A stretch of DNA of 29,514 bases from a virus, in the IMG/VR virus record IMGVR_UViG_3300025849_000152, positions 1 through 29,514 of that record; one strand, written 5' to 3'. Within the stretch, counting starts at the first letter, position 1; every line of letters starts with the position of its first letter. Below the pieces are notes generated by a model. That model was not told where the DNA came from. It worked only from the letters and a program-made list of their open reading frames with translations, and ran no database searches. Below are positions 2,973 through 29,273 of the stretch, in pieces. Both the position numbers and the translations under genes were made by a program.

Positions 2973-3359
2973 ATGAATAAAGACAAGCTAATGGAGTTAT
3001 ATAAAAAGTATAACCTAGACAAAGATGACTTTTTTAAGCATCAACACTACACAATAATTACTCGCCAAGGAATTGACAAGATACAAGCCTTAGAGCAAAT
3101 GAGCGTTTCTTACGAGGTTGTAAGGTGTGAGCCTAATTACGCAGTATTTAAAGCGTATGCAGAGAAAGACGGAAAAAAAATAGAAACATTCGGATCTGCT
3201 TTGAAAGGAGAAAATTACAAAGACGGAAACACAAACAGTTGGTACGTTCCAGAAATGGCAGAAAAAAGAGCGATGAGCAGAGCCGTACTAAAACTAACTG
3301 GGTTTTACGAACTAGGAGTATTTGGAGAAGACGAAAGCGAAAGTTTTAAACGAAATTAA
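2973..3359 (+). CDS. Conserved phage protein, possibly recombination/annealing-type, 128 aa
   Basis: The gene starts at an AAACA-ATG. The protein has an N-terminal helical part, then beta-rich AVFKAYAEKDGKKIETFGSA, then a helix PEMAEKRAMSRAVLKLTG and a final YELGVFGEDE. The ETFG...AEKRAxxRAVLKLTG arrangement recurs in flavobacterial phage proteins I remember, and it superficially resembles the core of Rad52/Sak-type single-strand annealing proteins. That is inference only. The context (NinG, SSB-like genes, helicase, RecE-type exonuclease) fits a recombination role. Confidence 0.6.
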   Translation: MNKDKLMELYKKYNLDKDDFFKHQHYTIITRQGIDKIQALEQMSVSYEVVRCEPNYAVFKAYAEKDGKKIETFGSALKGENYKDGNTNSWYVPEMAEKRAMSRAVLKLTGFYELGVFGEDESESFKRN

Positions 3360-3360
3360 T

Positions 3361-3753
3361 ATGAAGAGCGGAACTATAAAACACATTGATCCAGACGGAC
3401 AGTGGAACGGAATGAAAAAAAGCAAGGTTACTTTTAAAGACGGAAGAGCTTACACTTTTTTTTCTAAAGGCGAATTTGTTGGATCTATTGGAGACACCAT
3501 AAAATATACAGTCACTAACGAGGATATGTATAATGCTAAATTAATTAGAGAGGACTTAAAACCCAAAAAAGTCGTTTCTGAAATAAGAGAGGATAAAAAA
3601 GAAACCTTCAAAAGCTGGGTGCGTGAAGACCTTTACTTAAACGTAAGGACAAGCTGCATAATAGCAGCATCTAATTTTCACGCACAAAGAGTTTCGGACG
3701 TTGAGACTCTTATAAAAGACGCAGAACAAATGTATAATTGGATTAATAAATAA
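3361..3753 (+). CDS. SSB-like / OB-fold-type hypothetical protein, 130 aa
   Basis: I chose the ATG at 3361, one base after the previous stop; an upstream TTG at 3322 would overlap the neighbour. Residues 1-62 have a strand pattern like an OB fold: SGTIKHIDPDGQW, KKSKVTFKDGRAYTFFSKG, GDTIKYTVTNE. The C-terminal third (about 88-130) is helical and ends in AEQMYNWINK, a tail type that I link with phage DNA-binding proteins. Single-stranded DNA binding is plausible given the neighbours but not proven. Confidence 0.6.
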   Translation: MKSGTIKHIDPDGQWNGMKKSKVTFKDGRAYTFFSKGEFVGSIGDTIKYTVTNEDMYNAKLIREDLKPKKVVSEIREDKKETFKSWVREDLYLNVRTSCIIAASNFHAQRVSDVETLIKDAEQMYNWINK

Positions 3754-8608: not shown

Positions 8609-9362
8609 CACAGAGCATAACATAAAGGATCTGGAACAGAAATGTTACTCAGACGAATTTTATTACGGATACTTAGGAAAAGCTGCTTTTTCCTCCAGTG
8701 CCTTAAAGCTATTGTTAGATAGCCCAAAAACATATCACTATATTACTAAATACGGACAAGAGCAGAACAGTCAAGCGTTACGTGACGGCTGGTTGTTTCA
8801 CACTATGATGCTAGAGCCAGAAAAAATAGACGACGTTGTTTTTGTAGACGTTCAAAGTAAAAACACTAAGAAGTTTAAAGAAGCTAAACTGGAATACCCA
8901 GACGTGTTTACAATGAAAGAAAAAAACGACTCAGAGCGTTTAGTAGATGCTATGAGCAAGAACAATACGGCTATGGAGTTAATGAGAGATAGCGTTACGG
9001 AGATACCAGCAATAGGTAATTTACAAGGCTATCCCTTTAGAGCTAAGGCAGATGTACTCAAAAATGCTGGAGGTCTTGTGGATCTTAAAACTACGATTGA
9101 TGTAAAGAACTTTGATAAAAGTGCCTCAAAATATCGTTATTATCTACAAGTGTATATTTATTGCAAACTATTTGGAGTGGATTATAAAGACTTTAAATTT
9201 TTATGTATTGATAAAAAGAACTTAGACATTGCGGTTTGGGACGTATCAAAAGACTTTTACGAAAGAGGAGAGCAAGAGGTTGCTAAGGCTATTAAAATAT
9301 ATGAACACTATAAAAGCGATGCTTTTGATATAAACGATTTTATAATTGAAGGCACACTTTAA
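8586..9362 (+). CDS. RecE-type exonuclease (PD-(D/E)XK, exonuclease VIII-like), 258 aa
   Basis: The PD-(D/E)XK core is clear: FHTMMLEP with His72, RAKADVL with Asp156, GLVDLKTT with Asp166-x-Lys168, and YYLQVYIY with Gln188 on the motif IV helix. This is the pattern of the RecE/YqaJ-related 5'-3' exonucleases (DUF3799-type). They resect double-stranded ends to give single strands for an annealing protein. The length equals a stand-alone catalytic domain. The annealing partner could be the protein at 2973-3359 and the SSB-like genes. The recombination genes are therefore split over two operons. Confidence 0.85.
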   Translation: MTIKLLDNTEHNIKDLEQKCYSDEFYYGYLGKAAFSSSALKLLLDSPKTYHYITKYGQEQNSQALRDGWLFHTMMLEPEKIDDVVFVDVQSKNTKKFKEAKLEYPDVFTMKEKNDSERLVDAMSKNNTAMELMRDSVTEIPAIGNLQGYPFRAKADVLKNAGGLVDLKTTIDVKNFDKSASKYRYYLQVYIYCKLFGVDYKDFKFLCIDKKNLDIAVWDVSKDFYERGEQEVAKAIKIYEHYKSDAFDINDFIIEGTL

Positions 9363-9372
9363 AACAGAAAAA

Positions 9373-9786
9373 ATGACAGAGAAAGAAATAACAAACTATA
9401 ATTGGTTAGCAGAAAGAATACTTTACTATACCGACATAAATGTACTAGACAAAAAAAGAACAAGAGAGAATGTAAATGCAAGAGTAGTTTTTTGCAAGAT
9501 AGCTAAAGAAACTTTCTGGTGCCGAGTTGGGCATATAGCAAAGTTTTTAGGCAAGGATCACGCAACTGTAATACATTCGGTTAAAGGTTTTGACGTAGTA
9601 AAAAATTACGAGCATAAGTTTTATAAAGCTTTTCAATTAATACTATTAGAACTGGAGGGCGAAGAGATGATTGTAAAACATTTTAACTTAGGAATGATTG
9701 ACGAAATTGACGAAAGAGTATTAAATTACAGAGAGTCGATAAAGGAGAAAGTAAACAAAATCACAAAATTAGTAGAAAACAATTAA
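9373..9786 (+). CDS. Stand-alone DnaA domain IV-like DNA-binding protein, 137 aa
   Basis: Residues 31-74 match the C-terminal DNA-binding domain of DnaA: R-x3-V-x-AR...IAKE, then IAKFLGKDHATVIHSVKGFD, with the diagnostic D-H-x-T-V-I-H at 62-68 that reads the DnaA box. No AAA+ (Walker) part is present. A helical C-terminus of about 60 residues (ILLELEGEEM...KEKVNKITKLVENN) replaces it and may bind a partner such as the helicase. I chose the ATG at 9373 over the TTG at 9346, which would overlap the exonuclease. DnaA-type boxes occur at 6589-6609. An initiator, a host-DnaA competitor or a repressor are all possible. Confidence 0.75.
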   Translation: MTEKEITNYNWLAERILYYTDINVLDKKRTRENVNARVVFCKIAKETFWCRVGHIAKFLGKDHATVIHSVKGFDVVKNYEHKFYKAFQLILLELEGEEMIVKHFNLGMIDEIDERVLNYRESIKEKVNKITKLVENN

Positions 9787-9787
9787 T

Positions 9788-10378
9788 ATGGAATTAGTAA
9801 AGATTACAGAAGTAAAGGGAAACAAAGATAACCCTCGTATCATTAAAGATGCTAAATTTAAAAAACTAGTCAATAGCATAAAGGACTTTCCAGAAATGCT
9901 TAAAATTAGACCGATAGTAGTAAACGGAGAAATGACTGTGCTAGGAGGCAATATGAGATTAAAGGCTTGTCAACAAGCTGGGCTAAAAGAAGTTTGGATT
10001 ATAAAAGCTGACAATTTAACAGAGGAGCAACAAAGAGAGTTTATAATAAAAGACAACTCTGGTTTTGGCGAGTGGGACTGGGACACGTTAGCAAACGAAT
10101 GGGACGTCGATAAGCTAGAGGACTGGGGACTTGATGTGCCAAGCATAGAGGAGTTTACTGGAGTTGAGGAGCAAGAGATTGAGTTTAGCGAATATTTAGA
10201 CGAATCACATAATTACGTCGTATTACTGTTTGACTCAGAGGTTGACTGGCTATCAGCACAAACTCATTTCGATATTAGCTCAGTACATTCAATGCGAGCG
10301 AATGGCAAACCTTGGTCTAAAGGCATAGGAAGGGTTTTAAATGGAGCTAAATACTTAAGAAGTATCAAAGATGAATAA
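9788..10378 (+). CDS. ParB-like N-terminal domain protein, 196 aa
   Basis: The ParB/Srx-type fold shows in NPRII (15-19), LVNSIKDFPEMLKIRPIVV (27-45), the nucleotide-binding VLGGNMRLKA (51-60) and FIIKDNSGFGEWDWDTLA (85-102). The C-terminal 60 residues (YVVLLFDSEVDWLSAQ ... GIGRVLNGAKYL) are a second conserved unit that I recall from phage ParB-like proteins. There is no HTH as in partition ParB. Its gene overlaps the first glycosyltransferase-like gene by 8 nt, so it is probably part of that cassette, perhaps as the DNA-recognising partner of a modification system. Confidence 0.75.
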   Translation: MELVKITEVKGNKDNPRIIKDAKFKKLVNSIKDFPEMLKIRPIVVNGEMTVLGGNMRLKACQQAGLKEVWIIKADNLTEEQQREFIIKDNSGFGEWDWDTLANEWDVDKLEDWGLDVPSIEEFTGVEEQEIEFSEYLDESHNYVVLLFDSEVDWLSAQTHFDISSVHSMRANGKPWSKGIGRVLNGAKYLRSIKDE

Positions 10379-11087
10379 CATATACATACCCTCTTACAAT
10401 AGAGCTGACAATGTTAGAACATACGAGTATCTGGGTTGCGGTAAAATAATCGTACCTAAAAGCCAAGAGAGTGAATACAAAAAAAGGTATGGCAGTGCCG
10501 TTCAAAGTATTGACGATAGCAGAGACGGATCGGTTGCTAAAAAAAGAAATGCTATTTTAGATCTTATTAAAGAAGAGCAAGAAGACGGATACGGCTGGAT
10601 TATTGACGATGACCTAGTAAAGGTTAAAAGAAAAAAAGAAAGCAAAGATCTGGAGGGAGACGAAACATTGGAGTTACTTGAGAAAATATACATAATGGCT
10701 AAAGACTCTGGTATTAAATATGCTGGCGTAGATTACTCGCTTGACAATATGAAGCTGAAAGACTATCAGCCTTTCTCGTTTACTAAGGTTATATTTGGAA
10801 GCACTTTAATTTGTGAGAATGACGGATTAAGATACGACGAGAGGTTTAAAATTAATGAAGACGTTGAGTTTTGGGTACAAAAGCTAAACTTAAATAGAAG
10901 GCTTCTAAAGGACAATCAATATGCTACTGTGTTCTACGGAGATGACGGAGGCAAAGATAGCGTAATAGGCTATACAAATGACGATAGGAGGGTGTATGCT
11001 ACTATGCTAAACAATAAGTGGGGAGAAAAAATAATGAACTGGAACAAAACAAGGTTTGAATTTAAAATACCAATTAAAGGCGTATGA
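10371..11087 (+). CDS. Glycosyltransferase-like protein 1 (possible TET-associated / GREB1-like GT), 238 aa
   Basis: The N-terminus NIYIPSYNRADNVRT, a basic AKKRNAILD (56-64) and a metal-binding triad WIIDDDL (Asp79-81) fit a GT-A fold glycosyltransferase, where the aspartates hold the nucleotide-sugar metal. The second half has YQPFSFTK, LRYDERF--NED-EFW and a final KWGEK...KIPIKGV. It is a paralogue of the next gene. The best family guess from memory is the TET-associated glycosyltransferase group of phages, proposed to modify oxidised DNA bases. No TET/JBP oxygenase or hydroxymethylase is in this window, so the substrate is unknown. Confidence 0.6.
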   Translation: MNNIYIPSYNRADNVRTYEYLGCGKIIVPKSQESEYKKRYGSAVQSIDDSRDGSVAKKRNAILDLIKEEQEDGYGWIIDDDLVKVKRKKESKDLEGDETLELLEKIYIMAKDSGIKYAGVDYSLDNMKLKDYQPFSFTKVIFGSTLICENDGLRYDERFKINEDVEFWVQKLNLNRRLLKDNQYATVFYGDDGGKDSVIGYTNDDRRVYATMLNNKWGEKIMNWNKTRFEFKIPIKGV

Positions 11088-11827
11088 AAATATATGCACC
11101 AAGCTACAAGAGAGCTAAGGGAGTTAAGACTCACAGAATAATAAAAGACGTGATTTACTGTGTTCACGAGTTTGAAGCAGAGGATTACAAAAAGCTAGGG
11201 TACAACGTAGAGGTTATGCCAGACAGTATTAAAGGAAACATTGCTAGAGTAAGAAACTATATGCTTGACAATTATATAGGAGACAAAGGCTTAATAGTTG
11301 ACGATGATCTGGAGGCGATAAAACGCTGGAACATAAAAGAAGGTAAGCCGAAACAAGAAACAATAAACAACATTACAGAATGGATTGAGCAAGGCTTTAA
11401 TATGTGCGAAGACGTAGGAGCAAAGCTATGGGGGGTTAACATCTTAGGGGACAAAGGTAGTTATAGAGAGTACTCGCCTTTCAGTTTAACTAATACTGTA
11501 TCAGCCTCCTTTATGGGCTTTCTAAACAACAAATTAAGGTTTGATGAAAGACTACCTTTAAAAGACGATTACGACTATTGTTTGCAGAACTTAAATGAAT
11601 ATAGAAAAATACTCAGACTTAACTATGCTTGTCTAGTAAAGAAGGATCACGGCAACTTAGGAGGTTGTGCCGATTACAGAACTATGGGCAGAGAAAGAGA
11701 TCAAATAAAACTAATGCAAAAGAAATGGGGCTCAAAGATTGTAAAGATAGACACTACTCAGAGAGGCAAGAAAAAAAAGAACTTCGACTTAAACCCAATA
11801 ATAAAAGCACCTATAAAAGGAATTTAA
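11084..11827 (+). CDS. Glycosyltransferase-like protein 2, paralogue of the upstream gene, 247 aa
   Basis: Aligned by eye with gene 1, it shares KIYAPSYKRAKGVKT, DYKKLGY, RVRNYMLD (56-62), VDDDLEAIKR (Asp73-75), YSPFSLTN, LRFDERLPLKDD, KKWGSKIV and the ending APIKGI. The order is the same; overall identity seems low (perhaps a quarter). It starts inside the stop region of gene 1 (4-nt overlap), so this is a tandem duplication that has diverged, perhaps to a second sugar or acceptor. A Lys/Arg-rich insert (QRGKKKKNFD, near 226-235) could contact DNA. It ends one base before the small terminase. Confidence 0.6.
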   Translation: MKIYAPSYKRAKGVKTHRIIKDVIYCVHEFEAEDYKKLGYNVEVMPDSIKGNIARVRNYMLDNYIGDKGLIVDDDLEAIKRWNIKEGKPKQETINNITEWIEQGFNMCEDVGAKLWGVNILGDKGSYREYSPFSLTNTVSASFMGFLNNKLRFDERLPLKDDYDYCLQNLNEYRKILRLNYACLVKKDHGNLGGCADYRTMGRERDQIKLMQKKWGSKIVKIDTTQRGKKKKNFDLNPIIKAPIKGI

Positions 11828-11828
11828 A

Positions 11829-12179
11829 ATGAACAAAACCGAACAACATAAAAAGGCAATATTAGAAGCACTTGAAAAACATCTCGGCATAGTCACAACG
11901 GCTTGTCGTATTGTAGGAGTAGGAAGGACTACTTATTACGGCTGGTTAAATGATGACGAAGAGTTTGCTAAACAAGTTGAGGATATACAGAACATAGCTT
12001 TAGATTTTGCAGAGAGTCAATTACATAAACAAATAGGAGACGGAAATACTTCAGCTACTATATTCTATTTAAAGACTAAAGGCAAGGGCAGAGGCTTTGT
12101 TGAGAGGCAAGAGATTACTGGAGCTAACGGAATGCCTACTAACTTTCAAATTGAAATAATTGAGAATACCGAGGATTAA
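11829..12179 (+). CDS. terS: Terminase small subunit, 116 aa
   Basis: An N-terminal helix-turn-helix (AILEALEKHLGIVTTACRIVGVGRTTYYGWLNDDEEF, about 10-45) has the GVGRTTYYGWL recognition-helix pattern of small terminases of the phBC6A51/PBSX type. The rest is a helical oligomerisation part (FAESQLHKQIGDGNTSATIFYLKTKGKGRGF) and an acidic tail. It binds packaging-start DNA and hands it to the large subunit, which overlaps its 3' end by 20 nt. Confidence 0.8.
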   Translation: MNKTEQHKKAILEALEKHLGIVTTACRIVGVGRTTYYGWLNDDEEFAKQVEDIQNIALDFAESQLHKQIGDGNTSATIFYLKTKGKGRGFVERQEITGANGMPTNFQIEIIENTED

Positions 12180-27575: not shown

Positions 27576-28011
27576 CATAATACAAGCTAAATCTACTGAC
27601 AGTGTTTTTAGAGGCTATGCTTCTGAAAAAATAAGTGTTACTTGGCGACACTATATTAGTGCTATTAACACATACACGATATATGATGCTGGAGCGACTA
27701 CTGCGTTTCCCTTTGCTTATGGAGGGATACCAGTACCTTATAATGCTTATTTTACGTCTTTAAGTTTAGCAAGTATGCCTTATTTAACTAGACAGTTTCC
27801 AAACGGAAGCTCTGTAACTCTTAGCGTTTATGCTGACAATGTTTTATTAGGATCACAAACACAAGCTCACGCAAATACAGTAAGAGAATACGTTAAATTT
27901 GACTTTGGTAAAGAACTATCAATAAATGCAGACCAAGTAATTACGTTGAGGTTACAAGTAAACGGACAGTGGTGGTATTGTGCCACAACTTCAATAATAA
28001 CACAAAGATAA
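27565..28011 (+). CDS. Beta-rich virion-region protein, 148 aa
   Basis: A mostly beta-stranded sequence with Tyr/Thr/Ser-rich strands: KISVTWRHYISAINTYTIYDAG, SLASMPYLTRQFPNGSSVTLSVYADNVLLGS, VKFDFGKELSI-ADQVITLRLQVNGQWWY. This fits a jelly-roll or fibre-like subunit, for example a head fibre or tail appendage. It directly precedes the 420-aa fibre protein (stop TAATG overlap) and is probably in the same appendage group. No specific family. Confidence 0.6.
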   Translation: MRNNIIQAKSTDSVFRGYASEKISVTWRHYISAINTYTIYDAGATTAFPFAYGGIPVPYNAYFTSLSLASMPYLTRQFPNGSSVTLSVYADNVLLGSQTQAHANTVREYVKFDFGKELSINADQVITLRLQVNGQWWYCATTSIITQR

Positions 28012-29273
28012 TGGAGAATCCAATTTTAGCAATGATACCTAGCGGATATAAAGGGCAGACTGCCACAGTTCCACAGGTTTACTCTGTTTTACCTAGTGAT
28101 GGAAGTGGGGATTTTGATTTTGATAGAGCTAACGGACTTGCGACTAGAATAAATAAAGAGGGACTAATAGAAGAGGTGGCAAATGACACTCCAAGACTTG
28201 ACTACAAAAATAGCACTTGTCCAAGTTTACTTTTAGAAAGCGAGTCGACTAATTTACAAGCTTACAGTCAAGATTTTAACAATGCAGTTTGGTTTAAATT
28301 AAGAACAACAGTAACGTCTAATAACACAACGTCTCCAAGCGGAGAATTAAATGCTGATAAAATACAAAGAACGTCAACTAATGCAAGTTATATACAAGAC
28401 GGATTTACTAAAAATGCAAGTCAAATTCAATACACAACTTCGGTTTTTGTAAAACAAGGCGAAGGCGATTATTTAGCTTTAAGAGTACAAGGTAACTTCT
28501 TTGAAAGAATAGATTTAAGATTTCAGTTTTCTACTAAGTCATTTATTTACACAAACGAGGCTGGTATTGCTGTATTAAATAGTACAAGCGTAACTGAGTA
28601 TTCAAATGGCTGGCTTAAACTATCTTATTCGTTTTTATCTGACACTCAAAGCTCACTTAACAATTATTTTTCTGCAAGGGCTACTAGTGGAAACGTAGAT
28701 AGTAACGACACAAGCTCAACGGCTTTTGTTTATTTATGGGGTTGTCAAGTGGAACAAAGCACATTTGGCTCTAGCTATATACCAACGACTACAATACAGA
28801 CAAGGTTTGCAGATGTTTGTGGAAACGCTGGAAACGCTGATTTATTTGATAGCAATGAGGGGGCTATGTTTGTTGACATACAAAAATCATTTAAAGACAG
28901 TAGTTTTGGTAGAATTTCAATATCTGACGAAAGCTCTGCTAACCGAGTTGTAATTGGCAAAGAAAATAGTAACACACAATTTAGAATGTTTGTAGCGCAT
29001 ACAAACGGAACTATTGACGCTCAAAAATATACTGATGTTAACTTTGATGTTAGAAATAAATTTATTATAACTTGGAAACTAAACGATTTTAAATTTTACC
29101 AAAACGGTTCTTTAATACACTCTGACACATCTGGGAGTATACCAATAGGGCTTTCTAAGTTTGCTTTTAACGAAAACAATTTAGGTAGTCAAGACTTTTT
29201 AGGAAAAATAAATGGAGTGAGATATTACAATAAAGTATTAACACAAGCAGAAGCAATAAAACTAACAACATAA
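28011..29273 (+). CDS. Tail fibre / adhesin with LamG-like C-terminus, 420 aa
   Basis: The N-terminal 65 residues (VYSVLPSDGSGDFDFDRANGLATRINKEGLIEEV, near 23-56) are the conserved virion-anchoring motif of this fibre family. A jelly-roll-like carbohydrate-binding central part (about 70-255, e.g. YLWGCQVEQSTFGSSYIPTT) and a LamG-type C-terminus (about 260-420) follow. The last part is paralogous to the gene fragment at 1-504. It probably binds host surface sugars. I chose ATG 28011 over an earlier in-frame start at 27969, which overlaps the upstream gene. The gene starts inside the upstream stop. Confidence 0.75.
   Translation: MENPILAMIPSGYKGQTATVPQVYSVLPSDGSGDFDFDRANGLATRINKEGLIEEVANDTPRLDYKNSTCPSLLLESESTNLQAYSQDFNNAVWFKLRTTVTSNNTTSPSGELNADKIQRTSTNASYIQDGFTKNASQIQYTTSVFVKQGEGDYLALRVQGNFFERIDLRFQFSTKSFIYTNEAGIAVLNSTSVTEYSNGWLKLSYSFLSDTQSSLNNYFSARATSGNVDSNDTSSTAFVYLWGCQVEQSTFGSSYIPTTTIQTRFADVCGNAGNADLFDSNEGAMFVDIQKSFKDSSFGRISISDESSANRVVIGKENSNTQFRMFVAHTNGTIDAQKYTDVNFDVRNKFIITWKLNDFKFYQNGSLIHSDTSGSIPIGLSKFAFNENNLGSQDFLGKINGVRYYNKVLTQAEAIKLTT

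Follow-up and report, generated by a model that had tools for sequence, protein, structure and literature searches.

To our knowledge, all known phage DNA glycosylation starts from a hydroxylated pyrimidine, and the characterised TAGT-type activity that we know of uses hydroxymethylated or glucosylated pyrimidines. In TET/JBP-TAGT cassettes, a TET/JBP protein (PF12851) accompanies a glycosyltransferase of the TAGT family (PF20691), next to a ParB-like protein and in a slot before the gene for the terminase small subunit, terS (L097-L099 and other TET loci). T-even phages make the 5hmC nucleotide by means of a dCMP hydroxymethylase and their system, as described, has no ParB adaptor; the T6 beta-glucosyl-HMC-alpha-glucosyltransferase is itself a TAGT, and in T6-like phage this type of enzyme acts on hydroxymethylated/glucosylated pyrimidines and is held responsible for the second glucose on DNA (PMC13390438). 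A base-modifying enzyme likewise works with a ParB-superfamily protein in the Dpd system, where the ParB-like ATPase DpdB helps DpdA, a transglycosylase for preQ0, to insert the base into DNA; as described, that system has no tail-specific pairing of the kind reported below (PMC12839542). A ParBc protein is also encoded beside the DNA-modifying carboxymethyltransferase CmoX, an enzyme of C5-MTase chemistry, and its role there was stated to be "unknown" (PMC12783734).

The locus that we compare with these systems lies on IMG/VR record IMGVR_UViG_3300025849_000152, the full 29,514 nt of which were analysed and are called the window below. The window carries replication, packaging, head, tail and lysis genes; terminal repeats are absent, so that the contig may fall somewhat short of a complete genome. 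The gene order is ParB, GT1, GT2, terS, terL, and the first three genes overlap end to end (ParB and GT1 by 8 nt, GT1 and GT2 by 4 nt, ATGA), exactly as a sequence-only reading had described. The features are:

9788-10378, + strand: ParB-like gene (Pfam ParB_N and PHROG ParB families)
9788..10141, + strand: ParB/Srx N-terminal domain, residues 1-118, common slot platform (Pfam ParB_N, structure model)
10124..10141, + strand: approximate breakpoint on the upstream side of the exchange, at ParB codons ~113-118 (from comparisons with L279, L280 and G003)
10175..10375, + strand: GT2-specific ParB C-terminal tail, residues 130-196, proposed docking domain (tail-GT exclusivity, co-evolution)
10371..11087, + strand: GT1, optional second TAGT-family glycosyltransferase (PF20691, 52.9 bits)
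11084..11827, + strand: GT2, core TAGT-family glycosyltransferase (PF20691, 46.2 bits; GT-A fold model)
11300..11308, + strand: GT2 DDD metal/donor site, D73-D75 (invariant in 57/57 homologs)
11666..11668, + strand: GT2 Cys195 of the GGC motif, lineage-specific invariant residue (67/67 GT2)
11829..12179, + strand: terS, terminase small subunit, downstream slot border (PHROG; DNA similarity resumes there)

Directly upstream of the cassette, positions 9346-9786 encode a DnaA domain IV-type helix-turn-helix (PF08299), also present in one protein of the complete relative G002; the product is perhaps a phage replication initiator. At or near the contig ends, the products of positions 1-504 and 27969-29273 have LamG-like C-terminal parts that look alike by eye and are probably tail appendage proteins.

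The TET-associated (TAGT-type) identity proposed for both glycosyltransferases is borne out by Pfam, in which each scores well above the curated PF20691 cut-off of 27.5 bits, and both match the same PHROG family as the T6 enzyme, phrog_842 ("beta-glucosyl-HMC-alpha-glucosyltransferase"). They are, as had been noticed, diverged tandem enzymes (32% identity) with matching motifs: an N-terminal IYIPSYNRA or IYAPSYKRA, a DDD triad and a closing PIKGV or PIKGI. The triad, at residues 79-81 of GT1 and 73-75 of GT2, is also invariant in 11 GT1 homologs. The dN/dS of GT1 and GT2 is about 0.02-0.05 where synonymous change is unsaturated, and the cassette genes are under purifying selection. GT2 differs from the TAGTs of TET/JBP cassettes in Cys195, which is present in all 67 GT2 representatives and in 1/30 TET-linked TAGT representatives (the alignment of GT1 is uncertain here), and which by sequence comparison sets GT2 apart as a distinct group with its own clade. 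A catalytic role for this cysteine is speculation; the block that contains it is modeled with a pLDDT of about 61. "GT2" labels assigned within TET loci (scores 46-100) were rejected as distant TAGTs, true GT2 orthologs mostly scoring >240.

An AlphaFold2 model of GT2 (pLDDT 89, pTM 0.87) has a GT-A fold. A fold search had been suggested as a check, and it places GT2 with viral TAGTs, which supply its best neighbors among viral models; one of these is the beta-glucosyl-HMC-alpha-glucosyltransferase of Klebsiella phage PKO111 (TM 0.81). A VIA-align search of the PDB is led by polypeptide GalNAc-transferases (Z 13.5, 214 residues, 4.0 A). The top Foldseek match in the PDB is AvpGT, a promiscuous nucleoside 3'-O-glucosyltransferase (PMC11959488), and a sequence search matched GT2 to none of the solved structures. 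Because polypeptide GalNAc-transferases lead the VIA-align neighbors, we weigh a protein as the main rival to DNA as the target: GT2 would then glycosylate the ParB tail (or terminase), and the association of tail and GT2 would be that of substrate and enzyme, not of adaptor and enzyme. The viral TAGT neighbors argue against this, as does the placement of GT2 away from terL in several loci; taken with the properties of the tail described next, we regard a protein substrate as quite unlikely.

The first gene product had been read as a ParB/Srx-fold protein with an extra C-terminal unit, and both parts of that description hold. The protein matches Pfam ParB_N (PF02195) exactly at the cut-off (26.3 bits) as well as many PHROG ParB families, and the model of its N-terminal domain is nearest to the nucleotide-bound CTP-binding domain of M. 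xanthus ParB (Z 12.7, 89 residues, 1.5 A, 35% identity). In ParB CTPases, the GERR motif contributes a glutamate with a role in CTP hydrolysis; the window's ParB has GGNMR at this place, and hydrolysis of CTP by this protein is therefore uncertain. Partition ParBs of chromosomes and plasmids have a central parS-binding HTH domain and a ParA partner; ParB_N is the only Pfam match in the window's protein, in which any HTH would have to be a remote one. The region that follows ParB_N is the GT2-specific tail, which comprises ~65 residues (about 130-196) with the motif NYVVLxFxNdxDWLxAqthF...KGIGRVxxG and a model pLDDT of 45-81. Its invariant positions are N-Y, F, D-W, R-V and G. They include Tyr143, a residue that would suit a protein acceptor, but tail alignments contain no invariant Ser/Thr. 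They also contain no invariant His or Cys, which makes a role of the tail as a metal site producing the acceptor unlikely. Across 902 pairs of proteins with N-domain identity <35% (17-35%), the tails are on average 58% identical and the N-domains 25%.

Recurrence of the link between ParB and glycosyltransferase in other phages had been named as a test, and lack of recurrence is clearly contradicted. We scanned IMG/VR with GT1, ParB and a GT2 alignment and also searched 84,980 bacterial and archaeal species genomes; the best 80 of 454 viral GT2 matches were kept. A tailed ParB directly precedes GT2 in 201/201 loci with room upstream, and a glycosyltransferase lies within three genes of a tailed ParB in 204/204 loci with room downstream, counts that partly overlap since more than one scan may return the same contig; counted as proteins, the distinct tailed ParBs number 112. 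A supposed locus without GT2 (L167) was an ORF-calling artefact. Modeled as a profile, the tail identified 302 confirmed loci in a tail-only scan, and all 80 kept of these 302 agree with the pairing. Conversely, none of ~127 distinct ParBs encoded beside Mom, TET/JBP, DpdA or a fused methyltransferase has the tail. The phages and prophages belong to hosts in the Bacteroidota, Verrucomicrobiota (Roseibacillus), Spirochaetota (Treponema, Spirochaetia), Bacillota (Phascolarctobacterium, Streptococcus), Victivallaceae and Phycisphaerae, so that the ParB-GT2 pair occurs in at least six host phyla, with the proviso that several host records are metagenome-assembled genomes, for which the host named depends on the quality of the binning. 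GT2 has no match among 72,556 plasmids. Among 50,697 phage records, Streptococcus phage Javan291 is the sole confident match to the window's GT1, its GT-like protein or tail, which would explain why the module has so far gone unstudied.

The pairing extends to sequence distances. Among 71 non-redundant loci, the distance between GT2s rises with that between their tails (rho 0.65; 0.64 as a partial correlation that allows for the N-domain; 0/200 permutations) and is uncorrelated with ParB N-domain distance given the tail (partial -0.05). Because GT2 distance tracks the tail only, the tail evolves with the neighboring enzyme and not with the remainder of its own polypeptide. The strictly one-to-one relationship of tail and GT2 would be expected of an enzyme and its protein substrate too; the other enzymes found in the same genomic position, DNA modifiers with ParB tails of their own, suit docking better. 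GT1 is less constant. It sits between the tailed ParB and GT2 in many, not all, GT2 loci: 73/220 tail loci have GT2 without GT1, and in eleven loci a class I or FkbM methyltransferase takes its place. GT2 is the core enzyme of the cassette, and GT1 is optional. In one locus (L006, positions 3029-3655), GT1 and GT2 are separated by the gene for a C5-cytosine-methylase-like protein (PF00145) of 208 aa that contains an SPPC motif; the cassette is otherwise 95% identical.

ParBs close to that of the window are followed, before terS, by a range of enzymes. Pfam identifies TET/JBP with or without a TAGT, Mom, an FkbM-type methyltransferase and a C5-methylase-like protein, and PHROGs add a DpdA-like protein with QueC and QueD and a DNA methyltransferase fused to ParB. 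Two ParB-based scans yielded 66 tail/GT2, 31 methyltransferase fusion, 28 Mom, 17 TET, 10 ABC-ATPase-GNAT, 2 DpdA and 1 GT4-like loci, counts that are similarity-ranked and hence give no estimate of frequency. In ParB pairs from different classes the N-domains can be 94-99% identical and the C-termini 17-29%. DNA similarity holds at about 88-92% as far as ParB codon about 114 and returns from terS onward (81-93%), as seen in comparisons of GT2 contigs with Mom, methyltransferase, TET and ABC-GNAT contigs and of Mom with ABC-GNAT contigs. Because near-identical ParB domains are joined to different tails and enzymes, and because the breakpoints fall at ParB codon ~114 and terS, we conclude that this region is an exchangeable DNA-modification slot. 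Profiles of the GT2 (109), TET (67), Mom (23) and ABC-GNAT (7) tails matched all members of their own class, as expected, with zero cross-matches, a non-trivial outcome, and each non-fused class with enough members has its own ParB tail; ParBs of the methyltransferase class carry the enzyme itself, as a fusion, at the tail position. We found no earlier description of an exchangeable slot or of partner-specific ParB tails in the open-access literature.

Some slot occupants merit separate description. A 354-360 aa fusion of an ABC-type ATPase and a GNAT acetyltransferase (phrog_11143, a family without an assigned function; L087 3833-4897, L255 1925-3007 and about eight other loci) is encoded with its own ParB tail and, by analogy with Mom, may modify DNA. 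In L176, from an unclassified bacterium, a tailed ParB-GT2 pair (from position 2327) lies near a second ParB that is followed by two Mom genes, each module having its own tail type. TET/JBP follows ParB without a TAGT in L257, L258, L268, L282, L306 and L380, two of which have an FkbM-type methyltransferase; oxidised bases may be otherwise modified in these loci.

The 31.9 kb contig G003 (IMGVR_UViG_3300031841_000591; L400, L401) contains two alleles of the slot, at positions 1-2477 and 30169-31929, with breakpoints at ParB codon ~116 and terS. The upstream DNA, ParB N-domain and terS of the two alleles are 95-96% identical, the tails 34% and the GT2s 32%; the tail and GT2 of one allele match a different lineage from those of the other (69-79%). 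The two alleles reflect a duplication or else a strain variant that was assembled into both ends of a circular genome; since either origin entails it, the tail and GT2 moved as one piece. Judged from such comparisons, the tail and GT2 form one exchangeable module. They are adjacent within one exchanged segment, and breakpoints inside ParB would move the tail together with the enzymes even if it were functionally unlinked to GT2. Such hitchhiking adds to the association in close relatives but fails to explain its conservation across phyla, where N-domains retain 17-35% identity and the tail persists; moreover, none of the ~127 distinct ParBs with other partners keeps this tail, and the distance correlation is tail-specific. 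We therefore consider hitchhiking alone to be highly improbable.

No recognisable source of a hydroxylated acceptor accompanies the module. The absence of TET/JBP and of a hydroxymethylase had been remarked on at the outset, and family searches of the record agree: Tet_JBP (PF12851; positive controls L097 and L099 detected) and Thymidylat_synt, for dCMP hydroxymethylase (PF00303; control genomes positive), are absent from the window and 36 other GT2 records, and 2OG-FeII_Oxy_3 is absent from 20 GT2 records and has no match in the window's record, absences that rest on family models in records most of which are fragments. Neither the TET/JBP protein of TET-associated DNA glycosylation nor the dCMP hydroxymethylase of T-even type DNA glucosylation is thus found in the window by these models. 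Among relatives, G002 (127 bases) and G029 (144 bases) are probably complete because they have exact terminal repeats, and Javan291 was deposited as complete. Pfam identified no oxygenase, hydroxylase or hydroxymethylase among the non-structural proteins of complete G002 and Javan291, and the only ORFs common to eight diverse genomes (G002, G029, Javan291, the window and four more) are ParB and GT (phmmer E 1e-3). ParB is itself unlikely to make the acceptor, given that near-identical N-domains serve Mom, TET and methyltransferase cassettes.

These observations bear on the main rival concerning the acceptor, in which GT2 glycosylates DNA only once an enzyme of the phage or its host, missed by family searches, has supplied an ordinary oxidised pyrimidine (5hmC or 5hmU). 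The substrates of the T6-like enzyme are in its favor, sister phages pair a TAGT with TET/JBP at the same site, and the window may miss a few genes; however, the negative searches cover 37 records, Pfam identifies no oxygenase among the non-structural proteins of the two complete genomes, the eight genomes have no third gene in common, and TET and the tail never occur in one locus (93 TET loci, 220 tail loci). On balance we think a missed source of oxidised pyrimidine unlikely. A bolder proposal, which we advance tentatively as possible and somewhat short of probable, is that GT2, brought by the tailed ParB, adds a sugar directly to an unmodified base without prior hydroxylation, for example at an exocyclic amine or pyrimidine C5 and possibly via Cys195, as a self-sufficient two-gene system.

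Based on the conservation, exchange and co-evolution of these components, we favor, as the more probable account, a system in which the ParB platform and its docking tail deliver GT2 to phage DNA and GT1 decorates the sugar, with no need of TET/JBP or a dCMP hydroxymethylase. The ParB/Srx N-domain would serve as the shared platform on phage DNA, and the tail, judging from its co-evolution with GT2, would be a docking domain that recruits this enzyme specifically. GT2 would then use a host nucleotide-sugar to glycosylate phage DNA, the probable target because the other slot occupants are DNA modifiers. GT1 would subsequently add a second sugar or a variant decoration; we infer this order from the loci that have GT2 without GT1 and from those of sister phages in which a methyltransferase replaces GT1, a substitution that would suit methylation of the sugar. 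The modification would probably protect phage DNA from host restriction or CRISPR.

The exchangeable slot and its partner-specific ParB tails are the general result of the present analysis. ParBs are encoded beside many phage DNA-modification enzymes without an assigned role (PMC12783734). Partner-specific tails hint at an adaptor function, which could extend to the ParBc neighbors of CmoX, and at recombination at a single site as the means by which phages exchange one DNA-modification chemistry for another. The module itself is real and widespread and has so far gone uncharacterised; it is probably a variant of phage DNA glycosylation, and the chance that its chemistry is new is a fair one. 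A conserved two-gene module without a hydroxyl source implies either a new chemistry of nucleic acids or an unrecognised hydroxylating route. If GT2 does act on unmodified bases, direct base glycosylation would be a new chemistry, and a two-gene system for it would have spread among phages of at least six bacterial phyla, interchangeable like a cartridge with the Mom, TET, methyltransferase and 7-deazaguanine modules that use the same kind of ParB platform.
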